The notes: a model not told the origin generated them from the sequence alone. A DNA stretch of 32,658 nucleotides from Planctomycetota bacterium (GCA_017853435.1 JAFMJN010000006.1:1-32658), one strand, 5' to 3'. Numbered from the stretch's first letter, positions 6,471 through 19,841 are shown. Program-made: numbers and translations.

Positions 6471-6830
6471 TCAGGGGGATCGGCGTGGAAAAACCCGCAT
6501 CACATCGTCGATTTCGGAAACGACGGTGCGCCGGTCGGTTCCTTCGGGCGGGTGCGCCGCGTGCATGACGAGTGGGCGCAACGTTCCGCGTGCGATGGGA
6601 TAGGCGTCGAACTCGGAGCGGGCGAGCAGAGCGACCAGATCACGTGCGAGGGCTTCCGTTTCGGGCTCGTAGGGAGGAAGTGCCGCGAGTCTGGCGACAC
6701 CCGCACGGAAGGCCGAGATCGGATCCTTCGCGTCGCGCGCGATCGCGTTGGTGAAACCTTCGGCGGGGGCGTCCGTCTGGGCGCACGCGAACAGAAGCAC
6801 GACGCACGTCGATGCGATGCGTGGGTTCAT
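6471..6830 (-). CDS. Small putative lipoprotein/secreted protein of unknown function
   Basis: N-terminus MNPRIASTCVVLLFACAQTD has a lipobox-like LFAC. Start overlaps the stop of the upstream vWA gene (ATGA). Confidence 0.65.
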   Translation of the reverse strand: MNPRIASTCVVLLFACAQTDAPAEGFTNAIARDAKDPISAFRAGVARLAALPPYEPETEALARDLVALLARSEFDAYPIARGTLRPLVMHAAHPPEGTDRRTVVSEIDDVMRVFPRRSP

Positions 6831-9139
6831 CGTGCGACGTAGGTGCCGCCGGTCAGTCGCGCGAGCCGCTTCATGAACTCCGCATCGTGATCCTTGCCGA
6901 CACCGACGCAGTGGATTTTCACCTTCTTGAGGTCGTTCATCCGCTGCATCTCCGACACGATCTGCCGAGGTTCGACGAGGCGACCACGATTCGGCTGTCC
7001 GTCCGACATGAGGAAAATGGTGTCGAGCGTCACCGTGTAGCGTTTGTCGAACGTCCCGCGGCCCGCCATCTCGAAGGCCTTTTCGAGCGGGTCGAAGATG
7101 TTCGTCGGTCCCGTCGCCTTGATGCCTTCGATGAACTTCACGGCATCGGCACGATTCTCCTTCGCGTTCGCCATCTTCGGCTTCCACACGGTGAAGTCGT
7201 GGTTGAAGAAGATCATGCCGAACATCGCGTCGTCGGGAAGCGAGCGGAGGGAAGCGATCATCTCGCGTTTCGCGATGTTGAGACGCGACTGCGCTCCGGT
7301 GGCCGCGTCGGCCTCGTTCATGCTCCCCGAGATGTCGAGGATGTACATGATGCGCTTCGAGCGGGTTTCGATGCCGTAGAAGGTGGTGCCGCTGCCCTTC
7401 TTCGCGCCGTCTTCACCCTTCGCGGTCTCGTCGTCCTTCTTCTTCTCGATGAGGGTCGGAAGTTTGCGGCCCGTTTCGAGCCACCAAGCATTCCACGCGT
7501 CACGTGTCGTGCCGATGTCTTTCCCGGCGAGATCCTTGAGCGCGGCGACGGCGGCCGTGCCGACCTTGCCCTTTTCGTCGACTACCGACACGAGCGATGG
7601 AACGCCGTCCTTGCGGCGGAGGCGGCCGAGCGCCGTGCATGCGGCGGCACGGACGTCCGAAGACGCTTTCACTTGGACTTCGGCGATGATCGCCTGGAGA
7701 GGAAGGACCGCCGAATCGTCGTCCTGATGACCGAGGGACTCGACGGCGGCGAGGCGTCGGGCCTCCTCGTCCTTTTCCTGAGGTCCGAAGGGCGCTTCGA
7801 GGGCGAGGCGGTTGAGCGCGGAACGCACCGCTTCATGCTTCACGGGACCCGCCGCTTTGGTGTAGCGAATCGCCCGCGGGAAGTCCTTCGTCGCGTTCGC
7901 GCGTGCGAGCGGTTCCGCGATGAGACGCGCCGCAGCGCGTTCGGCGATGAGTTTCGGTCGGGAAGAGATCGCCTTTCCGACGGCCGCGCGCCGCGCTTCC
8001 GCGAAGTCCGCGTCGTCGACGGCGACTCCCGCGGCGCCGCCCGCGGCTTTCGCGACTTCCGGGGGCGGACCTTTCAGTCGGCGCCGCCCGTCGACCGCGG
8101 GGACCATGCCGTCGACGGCGAGCAGCCGACGGACTCCCGCGAGCAGACCTTTGTCACCGACGGACGTGATCGCGGTCCCGCGCGTCAGCGGGTCGCTCGC
8201 ATCGATGTCCGCCACGATCTTCTTCAGATTCGCCGCTTCACGACCGACGAAGTCCTTCCAAAGGGTCGCGTTGTCGAAGAAGGTGATTCCGGTCAGGTCT
8301 TCGAGCGCCTCGACGATTTCGTCGAGGACGCGACCTTCTTTACCGGGTAGCGCGTCTGCGAGAGGCGCGAGGGCGTCGAGCGAACCGATATCGGCGAGTG
8401 CGCGGGCCGCGCTGACCTGAACGCTCCACGTTTCGTCGTTCAACGCCTTGCCGAGAACTGACATCGCGGAGGCGTCGCCGAGGCGACCGAGTCCGTCGCA
8501 TGCGGCGGCGCGCACCGCGGGTTCCTGCGAGCGCACGACGAGTTCGAGAAGCGAGGCCCGCGCTTCGGCCGTGGGCGTCGCACCGAGGACTTTCACGAAC
8601 AGGACTTTGTCGTCGACTTTGGATTGCCGTTCGACGGCGTCGGCGATGTCGATGATGGATTTCGCTCGGAGCAATCCGTCGAGACCGGCGAGCAGGCGCC
8701 CCGCGCCGTCGAGACAGAGGGCGGTCACGGTTTCCGCGTCGACGAGCTCGGCGTCGAGCTGAGCCATCTTCGCTTCGAGTTCCTTCGCCTTCTTTTCGAT
8801 GGGTGCAGCGGTGCCGACGGTGACGGCTCGTCCCTTCGACAGCTGATCGTCGATCTGTTTCCAAAGCTCTTTGACTTGTTTCCCGAGGGAAGCGATCTCG
8901 GAGCGATTCTTGTCGATCTTCGCGTCGGCCGTGCGGATGGCGGCGAGGAACTCCGGGACGAGCGTCGGATCCTTCGTGGCGACCGCCGCTTCGACCGTCG
9001 CCGTGCGCGCCTCGGTGCCCTTCTCGCGGGCGATGTCGCGGACCTTGCCCTTCAGGGCGGCCACGTCCGCTCCTTGGGCGCCGAGGTCGGCGAGGAAGAG
9101 GAGCAGCACGGCCAAGAGTCGGAGCGTGGAGAGCTTCAT
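6827..9139 (-). CDS. Secreted HEAT-repeat protein with C-terminal von Willebrand factor A domain
   Basis: Signal peptide MKLSTLRLLAVLLLFLADLGAQG. HEAT-like repeats (VRAAACDGLGRLGDASAMSVLGKALND, VRAAACTALGRLRRKDGVPSLVSVV). MIDAS motif IMYILDISGSMNE. Confidence 0.85.
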   Translation of the reverse strand: MKLSTLRLLAVLLLFLADLGAQGADVAALKGKVRDIAREKGTEARTATVEAAVATKDPTLVPEFLAAIRTADAKIDKNRSEIASLGKQVKELWKQIDDQLSKGRAVTVGTAAPIEKKAKELEAKMAQLDAELVDAETVTALCLDGAGRLLAGLDGLLRAKSIIDIADAVERQSKVDDKVLFVKVLGATPTAEARASLLELVVRSQEPAVRAAACDGLGRLGDASAMSVLGKALNDETWSVQVSAARALADIGSLDALAPLADALPGKEGRVLDEIVEALEDLTGITFFDNATLWKDFVGREAANLKKIVADIDASDPLTRGTAITSVGDKGLLAGVRRLLAVDGMVPAVDGRRRLKGPPPEVAKAAGGAAGVAVDDADFAEARRAAVGKAISSRPKLIAERAAARLIAEPLARANATKDFPRAIRYTKAAGPVKHEAVRSALNRLALEAPFGPQEKDEEARRLAAVESLGHQDDDSAVLPLQAIIAEVQVKASSDVRAAACTALGRLRRKDGVPSLVSVVDEKGKVGTAAVAALKDLAGKDIGTTRDAWNAWWLETGRKLPTLIEKKKDDETAKGEDGAKKGSGTTFYGIETRSKRIMYILDISGSMNEADAATGAQSRLNIAKREMIASLRSLPDDAMFGMIFFNHDFTVWKPKMANAKENRADAVKFIEGIKATGPTNIFDPLEKAFEMAGRGTFDKRYTVTLDTIFLMSDGQPNRGRLVEPRQIVSEMQRMNDLKKVKIHCVGVGKDHDAEFMKRLARLTGGTYVAR

Positions 9140-9283
9140 GTCGTGAAATTCCGGGCGCACCCGGCCGACGCCACTTTACACCCCGGGGCCGTACGGAAGG
9201 CGGTTCAGCGGCCTCCCACCGCGACGAACGATTCGAACGTCGTGGGTGCCGCGCTCCCGCGGCGCCGGGCCTATCATGAGCCC

Positions 9284-11281
9284 ATGTCGCTTCGAAAAAC
9301 CGTGGTTTGGGGTTGGCTCGCGTTCGCCGCGTTCCTGTGCGTCGGTTGCGGAGGCGACGACGACGTTTGGATCGAGGTCGACGAGCCGGGCTGGGTCGTC
9401 GCGAATCCGCAATCGCATCGCACCTACGAAGACACGTTCCGACCGATCGCCTTGCCGAGCCCGAACGCTCAGCGCACCGCGAGCGGAGCCCCCGGCCGTG
9501 CCTACTGGCAGCAGCGGGCCGATTACGCGATCGACGTCGAACTCGACGCCGCGCGGAACGAGATTCGCGGGACTGCCACGGTCACGTACACGAACCAGTC
9601 TCCGGATCCGTTGCCGTACGTGTGGCTTCACTTGGAGCAGAATCTGTTTCGGAAAGGGTCGCTCGGATCCGTGGCGCACCGCGGATCCGGTCGATTCAAC
9701 ACCACGGGTTCATCGTCGCTCGGCTACGACATCGAAGCCGTGACCACCGCCGCGGGCGAACCGCTGTCGCTGGCCGTCTACGACACGGTCGGTCGACTCG
9801 ATCTCCCGAGTCCCGTCGCGCCGGACGGCGGCAAGCTCGTCTTCAAGATCGGATGGCGCTTCCGGATTCCGGAAGACGAAGTGATGCGCTTCGGCATGGA
9901 GCAGGTTCAGGACGGCGTCATTTGGGAGTTGGCGCAATGGTTCCCGGCCGTCGCGGTCTACGACGATGCGCATGGTTGGAACACGCTTCCGTATCTCGGA
10001 AACGGCGAGTTCTACACGAACTTCGGAACCTACGACGTCGCCATCACGGTGCCGAGCGATCATCTCGTCGCCGCGACGGGCGTGCTCCTCAACCCGGAAG
10101 ACGTGTTGACGCCGATTCAACGTGAGCGGTTGGATGCGGCGCGGCGGACGACGTCGACCGTCACCATTCGCGGAATGAACGAAGTGCGCGATCCCGGATC
10201 GCGTCCGAAGGCCGGCAAGAAGGCCACGTGGAAGTTCCGGGCGGACGACGTCCGCACGTTCGCGTGGGCGTCGTCGCCCGCGTTCATTTGGGACGCGTGC
10301 TCGACCGGCGGTGTGTTGGTGCAGTCGTTCTATCCGAGAGAAGGCGCAAGGACGTGGGCGAAGGCCACCGACGATCTCCGCTTTTCCATCGAGCACTACT
10401 CGAAGACGTGGTTCCCGTATCCGTACCCCGTTGCGACGAACGTCAACGGTCGCGAAGGCGGCATGGAGTACCCGATGATCGTCTTCTGCTCCGAGCGCGA
10501 AGACCCGTACGACCTCTGGTACGTCACGACGCACGAGATCGGGCACAACTGGTTCCCGATGATGGTCAACAACGACGAGCGTCGGCACGCGTGGATGGAC
10601 GAAGGTCTCAACACGTTCATCAACTGGTATGCGTCGATCGCCCGTTATCCGGGTCGCCCATGGCCCGGGCGGTGGCGCGGAGTCGAACCCTCCGCCCGAT
10701 TCCCCGACTACGGCGACGTGATTCGCGACCCTCGACGTCAACCGATCGAAACGGTCCCCGATCGAATCGAAGATCCGCAGATCGGAACGACGCAGTACCG
10801 CACCGTCGCGGTCGGTCTCGTCGTGCTTCGCGAGAAGATTCTCGGACCTGAACGATTCGACGCCGCCTTCCGCGAATACATCCGTCGTTGGGCGTTCAAG
10901 TCGCCGCGTCCCGCCGATTTCTTCCGCACCATGGAGGATGCCGCGGGTTGCGATCTCGCGTGGTGGTGGCGCGGATGGTTCCTCTCGACCGACACTCTCG
11001 ATCACGCGCTCGAATCCGTCCGTTCCATGCCCGATCAGCGCGGAACGATGGTGACGGAGATCGTCGTGAAATCCGTGGGTCGCATGGTTTGCCCCGCGGA
11101 ATTCGAAATCCGCTGGGACGACGGAACGACGAGCCTTCATCGAATCCCGGTCGAGGCGTGGGCGACGACGGATCGCTACGTCTTCACGTTGCAGGATCGG
11201 CGGCGTGCCGCCGCCGTGCGGTTGAATCCCGACGGCGGATGGCCCGACGTCAATCCCGCGAACGATCAGTGGGTTCGCTGA
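9284..11281 (+). CDS. M1-family (gluzincin) aminopeptidase-like lipoprotein
   Basis: Lipoprotein signal ending LCVGCG. GGMEYPMIVF (GAMEN-like) and HEIGHNWFPMMVNNDERRHAWMDEGLNTF (HExxH-x18-E). Confidence 0.92.
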   Translation: MSLRKTVVWGWLAFAAFLCVGCGGDDDVWIEVDEPGWVVANPQSHRTYEDTFRPIALPSPNAQRTASGAPGRAYWQQRADYAIDVELDAARNEIRGTATVTYTNQSPDPLPYVWLHLEQNLFRKGSLGSVAHRGSGRFNTTGSSSLGYDIEAVTTAAGEPLSLAVYDTVGRLDLPSPVAPDGGKLVFKIGWRFRIPEDEVMRFGMEQVQDGVIWELAQWFPAVAVYDDAHGWNTLPYLGNGEFYTNFGTYDVAITVPSDHLVAATGVLLNPEDVLTPIQRERLDAARRTTSTVTIRGMNEVRDPGSRPKAGKKATWKFRADDVRTFAWASSPAFIWDACSTGGVLVQSFYPREGARTWAKATDDLRFSIEHYSKTWFPYPYPVATNVNGREGGMEYPMIVFCSEREDPYDLWYVTTHEIGHNWFPMMVNNDERRHAWMDEGLNTFINWYASIARYPGRPWPGRWRGVEPSARFPDYGDVIRDPRRQPIETVPDRIEDPQIGTTQYRTVAVGLVVLREKILGPERFDAAFREYIRRWAFKSPRPADFFRTMEDAAGCDLAWWWRGWFLSTDTLDHALESVRSMPDQRGTMVTEIVVKSVGRMVCPAEFEIRWDDGTTSLHRIPVEAWATTDRYVFTLQDRRRAAAVRLNPDGGWPDVNPANDQWVR

Positions 11282-11420
11282 AAATCCGCGGAGGGACACA
11301 AGCGCGCCGCCGTTTCTGCCGATGAAGCATGGGTGCGGTTCGCCGCACTTCAGGCAAGAGAGTGAAGCGCCCGGTACGAGGGGCGCCGCGACATACGATC
11401 CTGTCCGCTTTATGTTGATT

Positions 11421-11456
11421 GAAGCCCGCATCCCCGGCGACGGAGATGCGGGCTTC
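11421..11456 (+). terminator. Strong intrinsic terminator-like hairpin downstream of the M1 peptidase gene
   Basis: GAAGCCCGCATC-(cccggcgacgga)-GATGCGGGCTTC, perfect 12-bp arms, followed by gcttctttct. Confidence 0.75.
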
Positions 11457-11603
11457 GCTTCTTTCTCCGTGTCATAGCGCGTCGACGTTCGTCGGTCGGA
11501 GGCTATGGTGTTCAAGCGGGGATGACGAAGTTTCCGCAGTCGCCGATTTACGACCACTTGCAGGGCGACCCACAAATCCTGCTAAAGCGTCGGTGCCGTT
11601 TCC

Positions 11604-11639
11604 CGTCCGGGCGGTTCCGCGCATGCGGAGCCCCGGACG
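11604..11639 (+). promoter_or_regulatory. Hairpin immediately upstream of the MoxR-like gene
   Basis: CGTCCGGG (11604-11611) pairs with CCCGGACG (11632-11639), with an inner CCGC-gcat-GCGG stem. Lies 12 nt before the GTG start at 11652. Confidence 0.5.
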
Positions 11640-11651
11640 CGGACAACGCTC

Positions 11652-13124
11652 GTGCCGAAAAAAACGCCGACCGCAGAACCTTCAGCCACCGACGCCGTTC
11701 CGGATACGCCGCTCCATCCGCCCGAAGTCTTGAAGCCTCCGGGTGCGTTGAGACGCTTGGGCCTCTTCGGCCTCGATGCGATCGAAGCGCCGGTGCTCGC
11801 CGCCGTCGCGTTGCGAGCGCCACTCCTTCTCGTCGGCTCGCACGGCACCGCCAAGACGTTGTTGCTCTTGCGCATCTCGGAGGCCCTCGGACTCGAGTGC
11901 CGCCATTACAACGCCAGCCTCCTGAATTTCGACGACCTGATCGGCTTTCCCGTCCCGACCGCCGACGGGTCGTTGAGCTACGCGAAGACGCCCGCCGCGA
12001 TCTGGGGCGCGGGAGCCGTGATCTTCGACGAGATCAGTCGTTGCCGTCCGGAGGTGCAGAACAAACTGTTTCCGATCGTCCACGAACGAAAAGTCCAAGG
12101 ACTTCCGCTCGAATCGTTGGAGCACCGCTGGGCCGCGATGAATCCGCCGTGCGGCGATGGGTGTGAGGACGGTTGGAGCGGCAGCGAGCCGTTGGACGCC
12201 GCGTTGGCCGACCGCTTCGCGTTCGTCGTTCGCATGCCCGCATGGTCCACGTTTTCGATCGACGAGCGCCGTGCGGTGATCGCCGCGGAGGAGAGACCGT
12301 TGGGGGCTTCGGATTGCGCGGCGTTCGCGCGTCGGATCGAAGGAGTACGCGCGGCACTCGGTGCTTGTGAAACCGCGTGGGGGACGGCGATCACCGACTA
12401 CATACGGATCGTCGTCGATCTGCTCGCGACGTCGGAGATCGACCTCTCTCCGCGTCGCGCGAACTACCTGCGTCGCAATATCCTCGCGGTGCATGCGGTG
12501 TTCGCGTCCGCCGGCGTGACGTGGGATCCGTCCGAAGCGACGTTGCTCGCTCTCGCCGCATCCATCCCGCAACAGGCTCAGGGTCGCGACGTGCCCGTCA
12601 TGAAGCTGAAAACCGCGCATCGCGAGGCGATGAAGATCGCCACGCTCGACCCGGCGGATCCGCTTCGGCTCGTGCTCGCCACCACGGATCCTCTGCGGCG
12701 TCTCGAAGTCGCCTGCGGCGCGTCGTGGGAGTCGCGAGCGACCGAATTTTCCAACGTGGTGATCGACGTGTTGGCGGAACTGCGGCCCGGAGCCCGGGAC
12801 GCGGCGGCGGCTTACATCGTCGAATCGGGGCACCTCGGACGATTGAATTCGGCCGTCGCTTCGCAGGTCGGAGAGATCTATCGCCGCCTCGCGGTCACGC
12901 AGAAGGTGGACGATCCCGTCCATACGTCTTCGAAGGCATGGAAGACGTGGGGTCGGATGAAGGAAGTGCTGGCGACACTCGACCCCGAGTCGGCGCGGGA
13001 TCGTCGGTGTGCGAACGCGCTCGTCGCGTTGTTCGTCGAGAGCACCCTGAAGACTCCCGAAGACGTCGATGCCGCGCACCGCCGTTTTTTGACCGTGAGC
13101 GAAGTCCTCGGAGCGGTCGCGTGA
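11652..13124 (+). CDS. MoxR/RavA-like AAA ATPase (AAA_5 type)
   Basis: Walker A LLLVGSHGTAKTLLL, Walker B GAGAVIFDEISRCRPEVQNKLFPIVHERKVQG. GTG start. Confidence 0.88.
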   Translation: MPKKTPTAEPSATDAVPDTPLHPPEVLKPPGALRRLGLFGLDAIEAPVLAAVALRAPLLLVGSHGTAKTLLLLRISEALGLECRHYNASLLNFDDLIGFPVPTADGSLSYAKTPAAIWGAGAVIFDEISRCRPEVQNKLFPIVHERKVQGLPLESLEHRWAAMNPPCGDGCEDGWSGSEPLDAALADRFAFVVRMPAWSTFSIDERRAVIAAEERPLGASDCAAFARRIEGVRAALGACETAWGTAITDYIRIVVDLLATSEIDLSPRRANYLRRNILAVHAVFASAGVTWDPSEATLLALAASIPQQAQGRDVPVMKLKTAHREAMKIATLDPADPLRLVLATTDPLRRLEVACGASWESRATEFSNVVIDVLAELRPGARDAAAAYIVESGHLGRLNSAVASQVGEIYRRLAVTQKVDDPVHTSSKAWKTWGRMKEVLATLDPESARDRRCANALVALFVESTLKTPEDVDAAHRRFLTVSEVLGAVA

Positions 13125-13188
13125 AGGTCTTCGCCGTGTGCATGGCGTCGAGCCCGGCTAAAGATCCACCGAGCGACGAGGGGGCTCC

Positions 13189-13632
13189 ATGCGCGTGACA
13201 CCCGACACGGTCATCCGGTGGGACGGCCTCGCGCCGCCGAACGGCACGACCTCGCCCGACGAACTGCACGGTCTTGCCCTTCGTGTCGAATGGGCGGGGT
13301 ATCCGCACGACGACGGACTGATCGGGCTCGCGCGGATGTTCGGAATCGGCGACGTCGATGCGGAGTCGGTCGAGGCGTGCCTCCGCGACGCGATCGATCG
13401 TCGAACGCGTGAGTTGCGATTGCCGAGCGGATGCGTCGTCGTCCCTCCCGACGATCGACATCGTCCGTTCGGTGGCGACGCGTTCACCGCCTTCGCGCTC
13501 GCGTCACGCGCGAATCAAGCGGTGTGGATCGCGTGCAAATACCCGGTGCTCCACGGTTCCCTCGGAGCGAGGCGGTTTTCTCTTCTGATCCCATGGGGAT
13601 GGGTCCGTTCCCATCCGGAGGTTTTCGTATGA
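13189..13632 (+). CDS. Hypothetical 147-aa protein
   Basis: Complete ORF with SD-like GAGGGGG upstream. Stop overlaps the next start (ATGA), supporting genuine expression. No recognised motif. Confidence 0.75.
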   Translation: MRVTPDTVIRWDGLAPPNGTTSPDELHGLALRVEWAGYPHDDGLIGLARMFGIGDVDAESVEACLRDAIDRRTRELRLPSGCVVVPPDDRHRPFGGDAFTAFALASRANQAVWIACKYPVLHGSLGARRFSLLIPWGWVRSHPEVFV

Positions 13633-14996
13633 CTCTTTGTACGTCGATGGCCGATCGTCTGCTCGACGCGTTTCCGAGCGGCTCCTACACGACGGTCGGG
13701 TTGTTGCGGGTCTTCGACATCGTCGAATCACGCGATGTTCCGACGGCCTGTGTCGAGTGTCGCGTCGCTCCGTGCATCAAGGTGAATCCGGACTTCGTGG
13801 CGAAGCACGCCAAGACACCCGAGCACCTTCTCATGTTGGTGTTGCATGAAGTCCACCACGTGATCTTGGGGCATACCCGCATGTTCGATGGCCCGGGACG
13901 CCTCATGAACTTCGTGTTCGACGTCGTGATCAACGGAATGCTGTGCCGAGCGTTCAACGGCGAAGCCTACACGTCGTTCTTCACGTCGTACTACGACGAG
14001 GGGAATTTCCCTCTTTGTCTGCTGCGGCCACCGCCGGGTTGGCCGAAACGCAGCGACGGCGTGGCCTCCGGGCTGAACGCGCTCGCGCCGAATTTCCGTT
14101 CGGTCGTCGCGGAAATTCACCAGCAGATCTATCGATTCGGAGCGTCGTACGAAGAGGTCATGTCCGTGCTGAAGTACTGCACGCCGAAGTTGCCGGACTT
14201 GGAGGCGGCGCTCATGGCGGCGCTTCTCGGCACTCACGACGAGGAGACGGGTCCGGCGCCGAACCTCGCAGGTGAGTTGACGGCGGCGACTCCCGAACTT
14301 TCCTCCGCGTGGCGGTCGATTCCTTGGCCTTTCCAAGATCGATGGGACTTCGAAGTACGACGGACGACGGTCGCTCCACGCCGCCACCGTTCTCCGCGTG
14401 AGGTGCTCATCGGATTGATGAAGCGTGTCGCACGGCGGGGAGCGTCGGGAAGAGCGCCGCGAAAGAGCATGGGGGCGGGCGTCACCGTAGGAGCGATTCC
14501 GACGTGGGGTCGGCGCGAGCGTTGCCTGAAGTCGCTCGGAGTGACTCCGGTCTTACATACGAACGCGACTTCGCGACCGACGGTCGTTCGAGATGTGGAC
14601 CGTGTGCACGTCTACGTCGACGTCTCGGGAAGTGTGAATACGGTGATCGGCGCGCTTTACGGAGCGGTCCTCGCATGTTCGGAGTTCGTCCATCCGCGGG
14701 TCCATCTGTTTTCGACGGAAGTCACGGACGTGTCCTTCCGGGAACTCGCCGCCGGCGTCGTCCGAACGACGGGAGGAACGTCGATCGAATGCATCCTCGC
14801 GCACATGCGTCGACACGATGTGCGGCGTGCGGTGTGGATCACGGACGGATGGGTCGGTGTTCCGTCGAAGTCCGACGAAGCGTGGTTGAAGCAGCGACGG
14901 ATCGCCGTCGCCTATGTCGGACCTAGTCCGAACAGTCTATCGATCGAATCGTTCGTCGTCGCCGAGGCGGTACTGCCGACGGGAGGTGGATCGTGA
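13629..14996 (+). CDS. DUF2201-family protein: putative metallopeptidase domain plus VWA-like domain
   Basis: HEVHHVILGH zinc-protease-like motif near the N-terminus; VHVYVDVSGSVNTVIGALYGAVLAC MIDAS-like motif near the C-terminus. ATG overlaps upstream TGA. Confidence 0.85.
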   Translation: MTLCTSMADRLLDAFPSGSYTTVGLLRVFDIVESRDVPTACVECRVAPCIKVNPDFVAKHAKTPEHLLMLVLHEVHHVILGHTRMFDGPGRLMNFVFDVVINGMLCRAFNGEAYTSFFTSYYDEGNFPLCLLRPPPGWPKRSDGVASGLNALAPNFRSVVAEIHQQIYRFGASYEEVMSVLKYCTPKLPDLEAALMAALLGTHDEETGPAPNLAGELTAATPELSSAWRSIPWPFQDRWDFEVRRTTVAPRRHRSPREVLIGLMKRVARRGASGRAPRKSMGAGVTVGAIPTWGRRERCLKSLGVTPVLHTNATSRPTVVRDVDRVHVYVDVSGSVNTVIGALYGAVLACSEFVHPRVHLFSTEVTDVSFRELAAGVVRTTGGTSIECILAHMRRHDVRRAVWITDGWVGVPSKSDEAWLKQRRIAVAYVGPSPNSLSIESFVVAEAVLPTGGGS

Positions 14997-16117
14997 ATCC
15001 AGTCATGAAGGCGGCGGAATGGGTGTTTCCGGGACATCCCGACAAGTTGTGCGACGCCATCGCGGACGCGGTGGTCGAAGAAGCGGTGCGACGCGATCCG
15101 TTCGCGCTCGTCGGCGTCGAAGCGGCGGTGCATCGGCGATCGGTGCATGTGACGGGACGCGTTGCGGGAGTCGGGGCCGAGACGATTCCCGTCGACGCTC
15201 TCGTACGCGCCGTGTATGCAAGTGCGGGCTTCGACGCCCGCTTCGGGCCCGCCCCGGAAGATCTCGTCGTCGATGGCGACTTGGTGCTCGAGGCGCCGCT
15301 CGAAGGCGAAGCCGAGATTCGCGGCATCGCCGTGGACCAGGCGGTGTGCATCGGTTGGGCCAACGATCTCCCCGGAGCGCACCATGTACCGGTCGAGCAT
15401 GCGTTGGCGCGAGCGGTGGCTCGCGGCCTTCACGCCTTGCGCCGAGAAGCCCCCGAACTCGCACTCGGTCCGGATGGAAAGGTGCTTGTCGTGCTTGCCG
15501 AGACGTCGGTCGGCGGCGCGACGGTCCGGCAGCTCGATGCGCTGCACGTGTCGCTGCAGCAGGGCTCTTCGGGGGATGCCGTCGCCCTTCATCGTGCCGT
15601 GCGGAGGCGGGTCGAGGAAGTTTTGAAGCACGAAGCGGGACGTATCCCCGGGCTCTCTCCGAAGTCCCCCGACCGCCTTTCGGTCGTCGGGGCGGGGATC
15701 TTCGAAGTCGGAGGACCTCATGGCGACAACGGTTTGACGGGCAAGAAGACGGTGGTCGACGCCTATGGGCCCCGGGTGGCGATCGGGGGCGGGGCGCTTT
15801 CCGGCAAGGACTTCTTCAAGGTCGATCGTGCGGGGGCGCTCCACGCCCGTCGTTTGGCGAAATGCGCGGTGGCGTTGGGCGTCGCTTCCGAAGTACGGGT
15901 GGAACTCGGTTGGTTTCCCGGCGATCGCGAGGCGCGTTTGCTCGGTGCGTACGGACCATCGGACGTGCCGCTCGATCTTCGTGCCTTGGCGGCGCGTACC
16001 GACCTGTCTCTCGCGCGCTCCGGCGAAAGCTTCTTCACCGGGGGCCTCGTCGAACGAACGCGGTGGGGGGCCTTCTTCGACGTCGAGGCTCCTTGGGAGG
16101 TCCTTCCACGTTGGTGA
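14993..16117 (+). CDS. metK: Divergent S-adenosylmethionine synthetase (MetK-like)
   Basis: GHPDKLCDAIADAVVEEAVRRDP, GGPHGDNGLTGKKTVVDAYGP, GGGALSGKDFFKVDR and terminal PWE all match MetK signatures. The central GAGDQG-type motif is altered (AVDQA). GTG start overlaps upstream TGA. Confidence 0.85.
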   Translation: MNPVMKAAEWVFPGHPDKLCDAIADAVVEEAVRRDPFALVGVEAAVHRRSVHVTGRVAGVGAETIPVDALVRAVYASAGFDARFGPAPEDLVVDGDLVLEAPLEGEAEIRGIAVDQAVCIGWANDLPGAHHVPVEHALARAVARGLHALRREAPELALGPDGKVLVVLAETSVGGATVRQLDALHVSLQQGSSGDAVALHRAVRRRVEEVLKHEAGRIPGLSPKSPDRLSVVGAGIFEVGGPHGDNGLTGKKTVVDAYGPRVAIGGGALSGKDFFKVDRAGALHARRLAKCAVALGVASEVRVELGWFPGDREARLLGAYGPSDVPLDLRALAARTDLSLARSGESFFTGGLVERTRWGAFFDVEAPWEVLPRW

Positions 16118-16221
16118 TGCGCCCGGTTGCCGGACCGGGGACGGGAATCGCGACCGCGTGCGACGCCTGTGCCGACGTCGCGTGTCGGCCCTTCGATGGG
16201 CGGACGGGCTAGACTCGGGAC

Positions 16222-16878
16222 ATGTCGGAAACCGCGACGCCCGTCACCCCCGCCCATCTCGAATACATCCGCGCCCGCACCGACGCCGAAGGACCGTTTC
16301 TCGAATCGCTGCGCCGGGCCGCGGTTGGCGCGGGCATCCCCTCGATTGCGATCGCCGTCGAGCAGGGGAGTTTTCTCTCCACCCTCGTCCGCGTCTCGCG
16401 TGCCCGCGACATCGTCGAAGTCGGGACCCTCGCGGGGTATTCCGCCTTGTGGATGGCGCGCGGACTCCCCGACGGCGGGCGGATCGTGACCATCGAGAAG
16501 AGTCCGCATCACGCCGCGTTCGCCCGTGAATGGGCGGGAAAATCCCCATGGACGGACAAGGTCACCGTCGTCGAGGGGGCCGGGGGCGACGTGCTGCCGA
16601 CGCTTTCGTCCTCCGCGTTCGACGGTGTGTTCCTCGACGCCGACAAGGCGGGCTACGCGGCCTACGTCGACGAAGCGCATCGACTGTTGCGCCCGGGCGG
16701 CTGGATCGTGGTCGACAACGCATTCGCATTCGGTGAACTGTTCGTGGAGGCCCCGAAGGATCGGGAGACCCCGGCGGTGAAGGCGTTCAACGACCGATTC
16801 GCGAGCGACCGTCGCTTTTCCGGCCTCATCGTCCCCATGGGCGATGGTTTCTGGATGGCGACCAAGGTCGCCCCCTAG
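16222..16878 (+). CDS. O-methyltransferase (caffeoyl-CoA OMT / family 3 type)
   Basis: IVEVGTLAGYSALWMARGLPDGGRIVTIE, DGVFLDADKAGYAAYVDEAHRLLRPGGWIVVDNAF. Confidence 0.92.
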   Translation: MSETATPVTPAHLEYIRARTDAEGPFLESLRRAAVGAGIPSIAIAVEQGSFLSTLVRVSRARDIVEVGTLAGYSALWMARGLPDGGRIVTIEKSPHHAAFAREWAGKSPWTDKVTVVEGAGGDVLPTLSSSAFDGVFLDADKAGYAAYVDEAHRLLRPGGWIVVDNAFAFGELFVEAPKDRETPAVKAFNDRFASDRRFSGLIVPMGDGFWMATKVAP

Positions 16879-18765: not shown

Positions 18766-19302
18766 TCAGCCCGTGAACGCCGCCGTCGCGTGGACGACGG
18801 AGGCCATGCGCACGGCATCGTGAATGGTCGCGACGTCGACGCCGTGGTCGCGCAACTTGCGGTCGTGGGCCTTCACGCAGAACTCGCAGTTGTTGACCGC
18901 GGAAACCGCGAGCGCGAACAGTTCCATGTCGGTTGCGTCGGCTTTCGGCGCCGCAAGCCGCTGCATGCGCAGACGCGGCGCCATCGACCCGTACACCGGA
19001 TCGCCGACGAGGTGGCGGAATCGATAGTAGACGTTGGTCATCCCCATGATCGCGGCGGCGGCCTTCGCGTCGGCGATCGAGCCGTCGCCGACACCCGCCG
19101 CGCGCGCCTCGGATTCGATCGTGCCCGCGAGGGTGCGCGCACCGAGGGCGGTCGCAACCGCGACGGCCGTTCCCCAACGTCGTTCGGGTGTCGTGCCGGC
19201 GTCGTCGAGAAGGCTGCGGAGATTCAGCCGCAGATCCTTCGCGTCGTCGGGAAGTGTCGCGAGAAGTTGGTCCATGGTCATCGTCGTGTCGATGGGGTTC
19301 AC
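18766..19302 (-). CDS. ahpD: AhpD-like alkylhydroperoxidase (carboxymuconolactone decarboxylase family)
   Basis: NNCEFCVKAHDRKLRDHG CxxC-x3-H motif. GTG start overlaps the ahpC stop (GTGA). Confidence 0.88.
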   Translation of the reverse strand: MNPIDTTMTMDQLLATLPDDAKDLRLNLRSLLDDAGTTPERRWGTAVAVATALGARTLAGTIESEARAAGVGDGSIADAKAAAAIMGMTNVYYRFRHLVGDPVYGSMAPRLRMQRLAAPKADATDMELFALAVSAVNNCEFCVKAHDRKLRDHGVDVATIHDAVRMASVVHATAAFTG

Positions 19303-19841
19303 TTGGCGGTCTCCAAGGTGGGGGTGCCGGGTTTCCAGTTGCAGGGGCAGAGTTCGTCGGTTTGCAGCGCATCGAGGATGCGCAGCACTTCGGGTACGGA
19401 GCGACCGACTTTCAGGTCGTTCACCGAGACCCAGCGGATGACGCCCTGTGGATCCACGATGAACGTCGCGCGGAGCGGAACACCGTCTTGCTTGTGCAGG
19501 ATCCCGAGAGCTCCGCAGAGCTCGCGCTTCGTGTCGGCGAGCATCGGGAACGGCAGGTCGCGCAGGTCCTTGTGGTCCTTGCGCCACGCCAGATGCACGA
19601 AGTGCGAATCGAGACTCAGGCCGAGCACTTGGGCGTCGCGATCCGCGAACCGACCGTGAGCCTTGCCGAACTCCGCGATTTCGGTGGGGCATACGAACGT
19701 GAAGTCCAAAGGCCACGCGAAGAGCACGAGCCACTTGCCCGGAAAGGCGTCGTGCGTGAGCCTCGCGAATTCATGACCCGCGTCGAGACCGACGCAGGCT
19801 TCGAGGGAGAAGGGGGGAAGGGTGTCACCGATGGTCAACAT
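19299..19841 (-). CDS. ahpC: Alkyl hydroperoxide reductase AhpC-type peroxiredoxin
   Basis: [13 protein letters not shown] peroxidatic Cys motif. C-terminal [15 protein letters not shown] resembles mycobacterial AhpC (CxCNW). Confidence 0.93.

Follow-up and report, generated by a model that had tools for sequence, protein, structure and literature searches.

What function unites a MoxR-type AAA+ ATPase, a small protein, a metallopeptidase/vWA protein and a divergent relative of the SAM synthetase MetK in one compact run of genes? The question is raised by a locus within the window, that is, the whole 32,658-nucleotide stretch of DNA that was analysed, which constitutes an entire contig (C322) of a 2.9 Mb Planctomycetota assembly in 331 contigs. 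The genes concerned are as follows.

11652..13124, + strand: gene 1, MoxR-type AAA+ ATPase (AAA_5); 490 aa, GTG start, with AAA_5 and AAA+ motifs
13189..13632, + strand: X, a cassette-specific small protein; 147 aa, with a homologous gene in the same slot elsewhere
13629..14996, + strand: DUF2201_N zincin-like protein with a C-terminal vWA domain; 455 aa, with HExxH and MIDAS motifs
14993..16117, + strand: MetK-like protein; 374 aa, GTG start, with a TIGR01034 match below cut-off

The original prediction described four packed same-strand genes with 4-nt overlaps at 13629 and 14993, and the ORF coordinates match this description exactly: ATGA at 13629 forms the X/vWA overlap and GTGA at 14993 the vWA/MetK-like overlap. 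The ATPase gene is separated from X by a gap of 64 bp, hence the overlaps are limited to the last three genes. A scan of positions 11200-16400 found no sigma-70-type promoter, and the terminator-like elements counted in the same interval equalled those in shuffled sequences.

The four genes recur as a unit

Homologues were searched for first with the vWA protein (P0003) as query and then with MetK-like profiles, the latter independently of linkage. The MetK-like clade was found at 32 loci in 30 genomes, which represent four or more classes of a single phylum, probably Planctomycetota. Six-frame profile searches of 31 of these loci revealed a single-strand gene order of MoxR, X, vWA and MetK-like, in which the vWA gene lies directly upstream of the MetK-like gene in 31/31; the MoxR gene is present in 24, and the remaining seven loci end at contig ends. 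An X homologue occupies the same slot in 24 loci, which are all those where the slot is covered. The 32nd locus, in G716, agrees with the others in carrying a partial MetK-like gene directly downstream of vWA. A 4-nt overlap of the vWA stop codon with an ATG or GTG start of the MetK-like gene is possible at 22 of the 31 junctions, the spacing at the rest ranging from -14 to +63 nt. Order is kept even in the most distant loci, where the proteins are only about 30-45% identical to those of the window. Genes flanking the cassettes are mostly singletons that differ from locus to locus, and the unit thus consists of these four genes; a conserved fifth gene was ruled out on the same ground. An O-methyltransferase gene 105 bp downstream is found only in the same genus.

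The association holds when presence and absence are considered across the phylum. Among 393 genomes spread evenly over it, the MetK-like profile recovered five members at 344-641 bits, the next matches being canonical MetKs at 175 bits. A profile of the vWA subclade, applied to the same draw, recovered five genomes at 645-798 bits, with the next match at 151. The two sets are identical, a coincidence with a chance probability of about 1e-11, although the effective number is lower, two of these genomes being congeneric. Within family f88, to which G378 belongs, the MetK-like clade occurs in 25/181 genomes, two of which have two copies. The reverse search found the vWA protein in 30/180 genomes of this family, including all 25 with the MetK-like protein; of the other five, one is G716 with its partial MetK-like gene, and in the remaining four a contig end interrupts the locus. 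The finding that could have told against the association, a MetK homologue rarely adjacent to MoxR and DUF2201 genes in related genomes, is therefore excluded within the phylum, where adjacency is obligate in every testable locus.

The four genes have also diverged together. Pairwise distances of the proteins correlate with r of 0.88-0.93, a value reached in 0/2000 permutations. Between G000 and G001 the cassette proteins are 89-93% identical, as against 100% for canonical MetK, and dN/dS is 0.09-0.25 across all four genes (about 0.09-0.10 for the MetK-like gene); the cassette evolves faster than the housekeeping metK, yet under constraint. Searches of one literature library yielded no report of MetK together with MoxR/vWA, and the unchanged recurrence in 30 genomes indicates a real, apparently undescribed module.

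A probable motor, a putative zincin/vWA adaptor and a diverging small protein

The first gene had been described as a MoxR-like ATPase. This stands insofar as the protein is a MoxR-type AAA+ ATPase, but it is not MoxR proper: AAA_3 scores 20.4 bits, under its cut-off of 27, whereas AAA_5 passes at 36.7 bits (E 5e-9, cut-off 22), and the protein is thus better read as an AAA_5 (midasin/NorQ/CbbQ-like) member of the MoxR type. The Walker A motif GxHGTAKS/T, the Walker B residues DE, and the motifs AMNPP and ALADRF vary little or not at all across up to 24 cassette loci.

The third protein had been described as a DUF2201/vWA protein. In the window protein the Pfam scores fall just below cut-off, at 20.4 for DUF2201_N (PF13203; cut-off 23.2) and 21.8 for VWA_CoxE (cut-off 26.4), the threshold for DUF2201_N being exceeded by its orthologues from G227 (23.5) and G378 (23.9). 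The HExxH zinc motif (H73, E74, H77) is invariant in the 28/28 loci covering it, and H82 of the zincin-like domain and the MIDAS residues D331-S333-S335, T381 and D406 do not vary across the vWA family; T384 is threonine in 26 members and asparagine in five.

Thought to be an orphan, X belongs instead to a diverging, cassette-specific family with pairwise identities of 12-99% and a C-terminal pattern VLxRCxxxVFIRxxxP. An HMM built without the window and G001 sequences picked out the window's X as the top hit of 333 window ORFs (E 7e-4). The family has no Pfam relative, and the closest match in the PDB is no better than chance. Single-sequence AlphaFold models (pLDDT 42 for X, 39 for the MetK-like protein) were left out of the analysis.

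In MoxR-vWA pairs such as CbbQO and NorQD the target is a partner enzyme: the vWA MIDAS takes hold of it, and force comes from the AAA+ ring (PMC4660213, PMC9976466). CbbO binds rubisco through its vWA MIDAS, with CbbQ as the motor (PMC4660213), and NorD performs the same role for NOR (PMC9976466). The cassette shares with these systems a Walker A/B AAA+ motor adjoining a vWA protein with an intact MIDAS (DxSxS-T-D), in an order fixed in all testable loci, beside the gene for a putative client enzyme. It differs from them in the N-terminal zincin-like domain of the adaptor, the MetK fold of the putative client, and the extra subunit X. The same two-protein architecture, in which the vWA protein also has a metallopeptidase domain at its N terminus, occurs in group 2.2 jumbo phages, where a role in virion assembly has been proposed; neither X nor MetK is mentioned for the phage pair (PMC7824862), and P0003 had no match in a tblastn search of a phage collection.

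More distant MoxR-type and DUF2201/vWA pairs without MetK were seen at L023, L024, L025, L027 and L028 (genomes G140, G168, G033 and G028), and this type of machine thus does not always need a MetK-like client. Several of these pairs have an unrelated-looking gene for a protein of 318-369 aa in the X slot, and at L023 a 472-aa protein of no assigned kind follows directly after the vWA gene. Another MoxR and DUF2201/vWA pair, recalling that of the jumbo phages, lies in an AT-rich island that is possibly a prophage (L026, about 300-6500 of contig C104 in G248).

The MetK-like protein keeps its ATP site and lacks the canonical methionine site

Few enzymes are as well conserved across life as MAT, whose bacterial forms show next to no variation around the active site. 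The MetK-like protein is homologous to canonical MetK (TIGR01034; PF00438/PF02772/PF02773) over about 300 residues at 30-34% identity. Its N- and C-terminal Pfam domains score above their cut-offs (S-AdoMet_synt_N 52.4, S-AdoMet_synt_C 79.9), the middle domain falls below (S-AdoMet_synt_M 23.1, cut-off 29), and the equivalog model TIGR01034 is matched at 148.8 bits, short of 309.4. A long stem separates the clade, a single branch with 100/100 support, from canonical MetK; the branches within the clade are long too, so that its inner branching order is unsure.

We compared the clade, whose members diverge to 38% identity, with 27 canonical sequences, namely the E. coli enzyme and 26 from the phylum; positions are numbered as in the E. 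coli structure. The residues that handle ATP, ribose, phosphate and Mg (H14, D16, D118, D163, K165, D238, K245, K265 and D271) are invariant in 30-31 of 31 loci, counts below 31 reflecting truncated sequences. E42, F230 and K269 are nearly invariant, F230 and K269 varying in a few members. Conversely, the canonical methionine-site pattern of E55, Q98, I102, the flexible loop and R244 is absent from the clade. The canonical sequences conserve these positions; in the clade, E55 is arginine in 31/31 (the G716 fragment has cysteine); the Q98/S99 segment of the flexible loop is deleted in 31/31, its exact register depending on the alignment; R244 is lysine and H257 isoleucine, each in 30/30; and the C-terminal region is divergent. 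MAT structures show that E55, Q98 and I102 contact SAM from one (the second) subunit, and H14, D163, R229, F230 and D238 from the other (PMC8727953; also PMC3853416, PMC1282579). Read against these assignments, the pocket has kept most of its adenosine-phosphate half and lost its trans methionine half.

A canonical metK gene is found elsewhere in 19/19 cassette genomes tested, and the MetK-like protein is hence probably not a second housekeeping SAM synthetase. Use of ATP is likely, whereas use of methionine in a homodimer is unlikely. A clade in which ATP chemistry appears to be kept and the methionine site replaced looks like a case of natural neofunctionalisation.

A proposed remodelling machine dedicated to an altered enzyme

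The reading that we favor, with a probability of roughly 45%, is that the four genes form one functional unit in which a remodelling machine of the CbbQO/NorQD type is dedicated to a neofunctionalised, ATP-using enzyme of the MetK fold. The AAA+ ring would be the motor, and the vWA protein its adaptor, gripping the client through the MIDAS. By analogy with CbbQO and NorQD, the MetK-like protein would be the dedicated client or partner enzyme, remodelled or activated by the machine, and X may be an accessory subunit particular to the cassette. Cleavage of the client or of another protein may fall to the N-terminal zincin-like domain; indeed, the presence of this domain suggests proteolysis more than pure remodelling, which argues against the proposal as framed. 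Furthermore, to our knowledge MAT enzymes do not need an activase.

The MetK-fold enzyme is expected to bind and very probably cleave ATP in the manner of MAT. With the methionine-recognition half of the pocket lost, the adenosyl group would most likely be moved to an acceptor other than methionine, or ATP would be hydrolysed. It is tempting to speculate, as a tentative possibility, that this is a new adenosyltransferase retaining the MAT mechanism (attack on C5' of ATP and release of tripolyphosphate), that it acts on an acceptor that might be an acidic metabolite or else a protein, and that it is switched by its dedicated AAA+/zincin-vWA machine. We know of no other MAT-fold enzyme with a different acceptor, and this would be the first.

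The inference originally drawn from the locus, of a remodelling or metal-loading machine that matures the MetK-like enzyme or uses SAM or a SAM-derived product as a signal, survives in part. The module is real, the association of MetK-like, MoxR and DUF2201/vWA proteins is obligate in every testable locus, and action of the machine on the MetK-like protein is still the leading, if provisional, reading. Use of a SAM signal is unsupported, because the methionine-site residues are lost throughout the clade and a separate metK is present in every genome tested. Nothing that we found speaks for metal loading or against it. The obligate tie to a MoxR/zincin-vWA machine provides a rare case in which the likely client can be named from genomics.

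Alternative explanations

Could the cassette serve in conflict, as a defence or self-limiting system? The MoxR and zincin/vWA proteins would then act as a threshold switch, and the MetK-like protein as an effector consuming ATP or making a nucleotide-derived signal. Such a role would fit the scattered distribution (5/393 genomes across the phylum, 25/181 within one family), the two divergent copies in G604 and G620, and the divergence between G000 and G001 relative to canonical MetK; however, the cassette was absent from the viral-contig, phage and plasmid collections scanned. Neighbours vary by locus, one cassette adjoining a HEC-01-like ATPase and one a SoFic-like Fic protein, but most are ordinary genes, among them those for a katG-like peroxidase, MFS and EAL/GGDEF proteins. 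MoxR-vWA ternary conflict systems, which occur in planctomycetes, likewise combine the pair with a conserved third component, namely VMAP, iSTAND, FtsH or a beta-propeller (PMC7159879). None of these domains was detected by Pfam in the four cassette proteins or the X family, the cassette has no recognised effector, and bpMoxR scores 14 bits against a cut-off of 27. The sole PADLOC match to the four proteins is weak (CARF9, E 0.026, on the vWA protein). We regard a conflict system of this kind as unlikely.

Another protein, be it canonical MetK, X or the vWA protein, could contribute the trans half that the methionine pocket of the MetK-like protein lacks, the latter then forming part of a specialised or regulated SAM synthetase. 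The losses fall exactly on the second-subunit contacts E55, Q98 and I102, while the cis residues H14, D163, F230 and D238 stay (PMC8727953), and a canonical MetK is available as partner in every genome tested. Nevertheless, the changes of R244 and H257 and of the C-terminal region also depart from MAT, and the fixation of arginine at position 55 points to a new contact and not to mere loss. No heteromeric bacterial MAT is known to us, and we consider this reading quite improbable.

Loss of the substrate-site residues, together with obligate coupling to an ATP-driven machine, would also be compatible with a MetK-like protein that catalyses nothing itself and instead senses ATP for the MoxR-protease machine or regulates it. 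We think this still harder to credit, since 30-31 sequences, at identities down to 38%, share without exception the phosphate, Mg and catalytic residues, among them H14, K165, K265 and D271. Invariant catalytic residues at such divergence are unusual for a pseudoenzyme.

Chance adjacency of an ordinary metK paralogue to a MoxR operon, which has nothing in its favor beyond the single window, is refuted by the order conserved in 32 loci with unrelated flanks, by the matching phyletic sets and by the constraint (dN/dS 0.09-0.25) on all four genes.

Neighbouring genes and additional copies

A simple defence-island explanation was rejected, only two defence-like neighbours having been seen. The HEC-01-like protein is an AAA_21 ATPase whose gene, accompanied by another, immediately follows the cassette of G082 (L021:7536-9163), and the SoFic-like protein is encoded after that of G698 (L091:5133-6179). 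PSD/PSCyt domains occur beside one cassette and point to Planctomycetota as the phylum. A katG-like heme peroxidase of about 700 aa is encoded near the cassette at L096, L098, L104 and L089, loci of four genomes that belong to a single genus or family. The double copies are L087 and L101 in G604, and L089 and L103 in G620, where they lie about 20 kb apart on one contig. The window itself encodes, on the minus strand, a second and unrelated vWA protein of 777 aa with HEAT repeats (6827-9160) and an overlapping pair of genes for an AhpC-type peroxiredoxin and an AhpD-like (CMD) protein (18766-19841).
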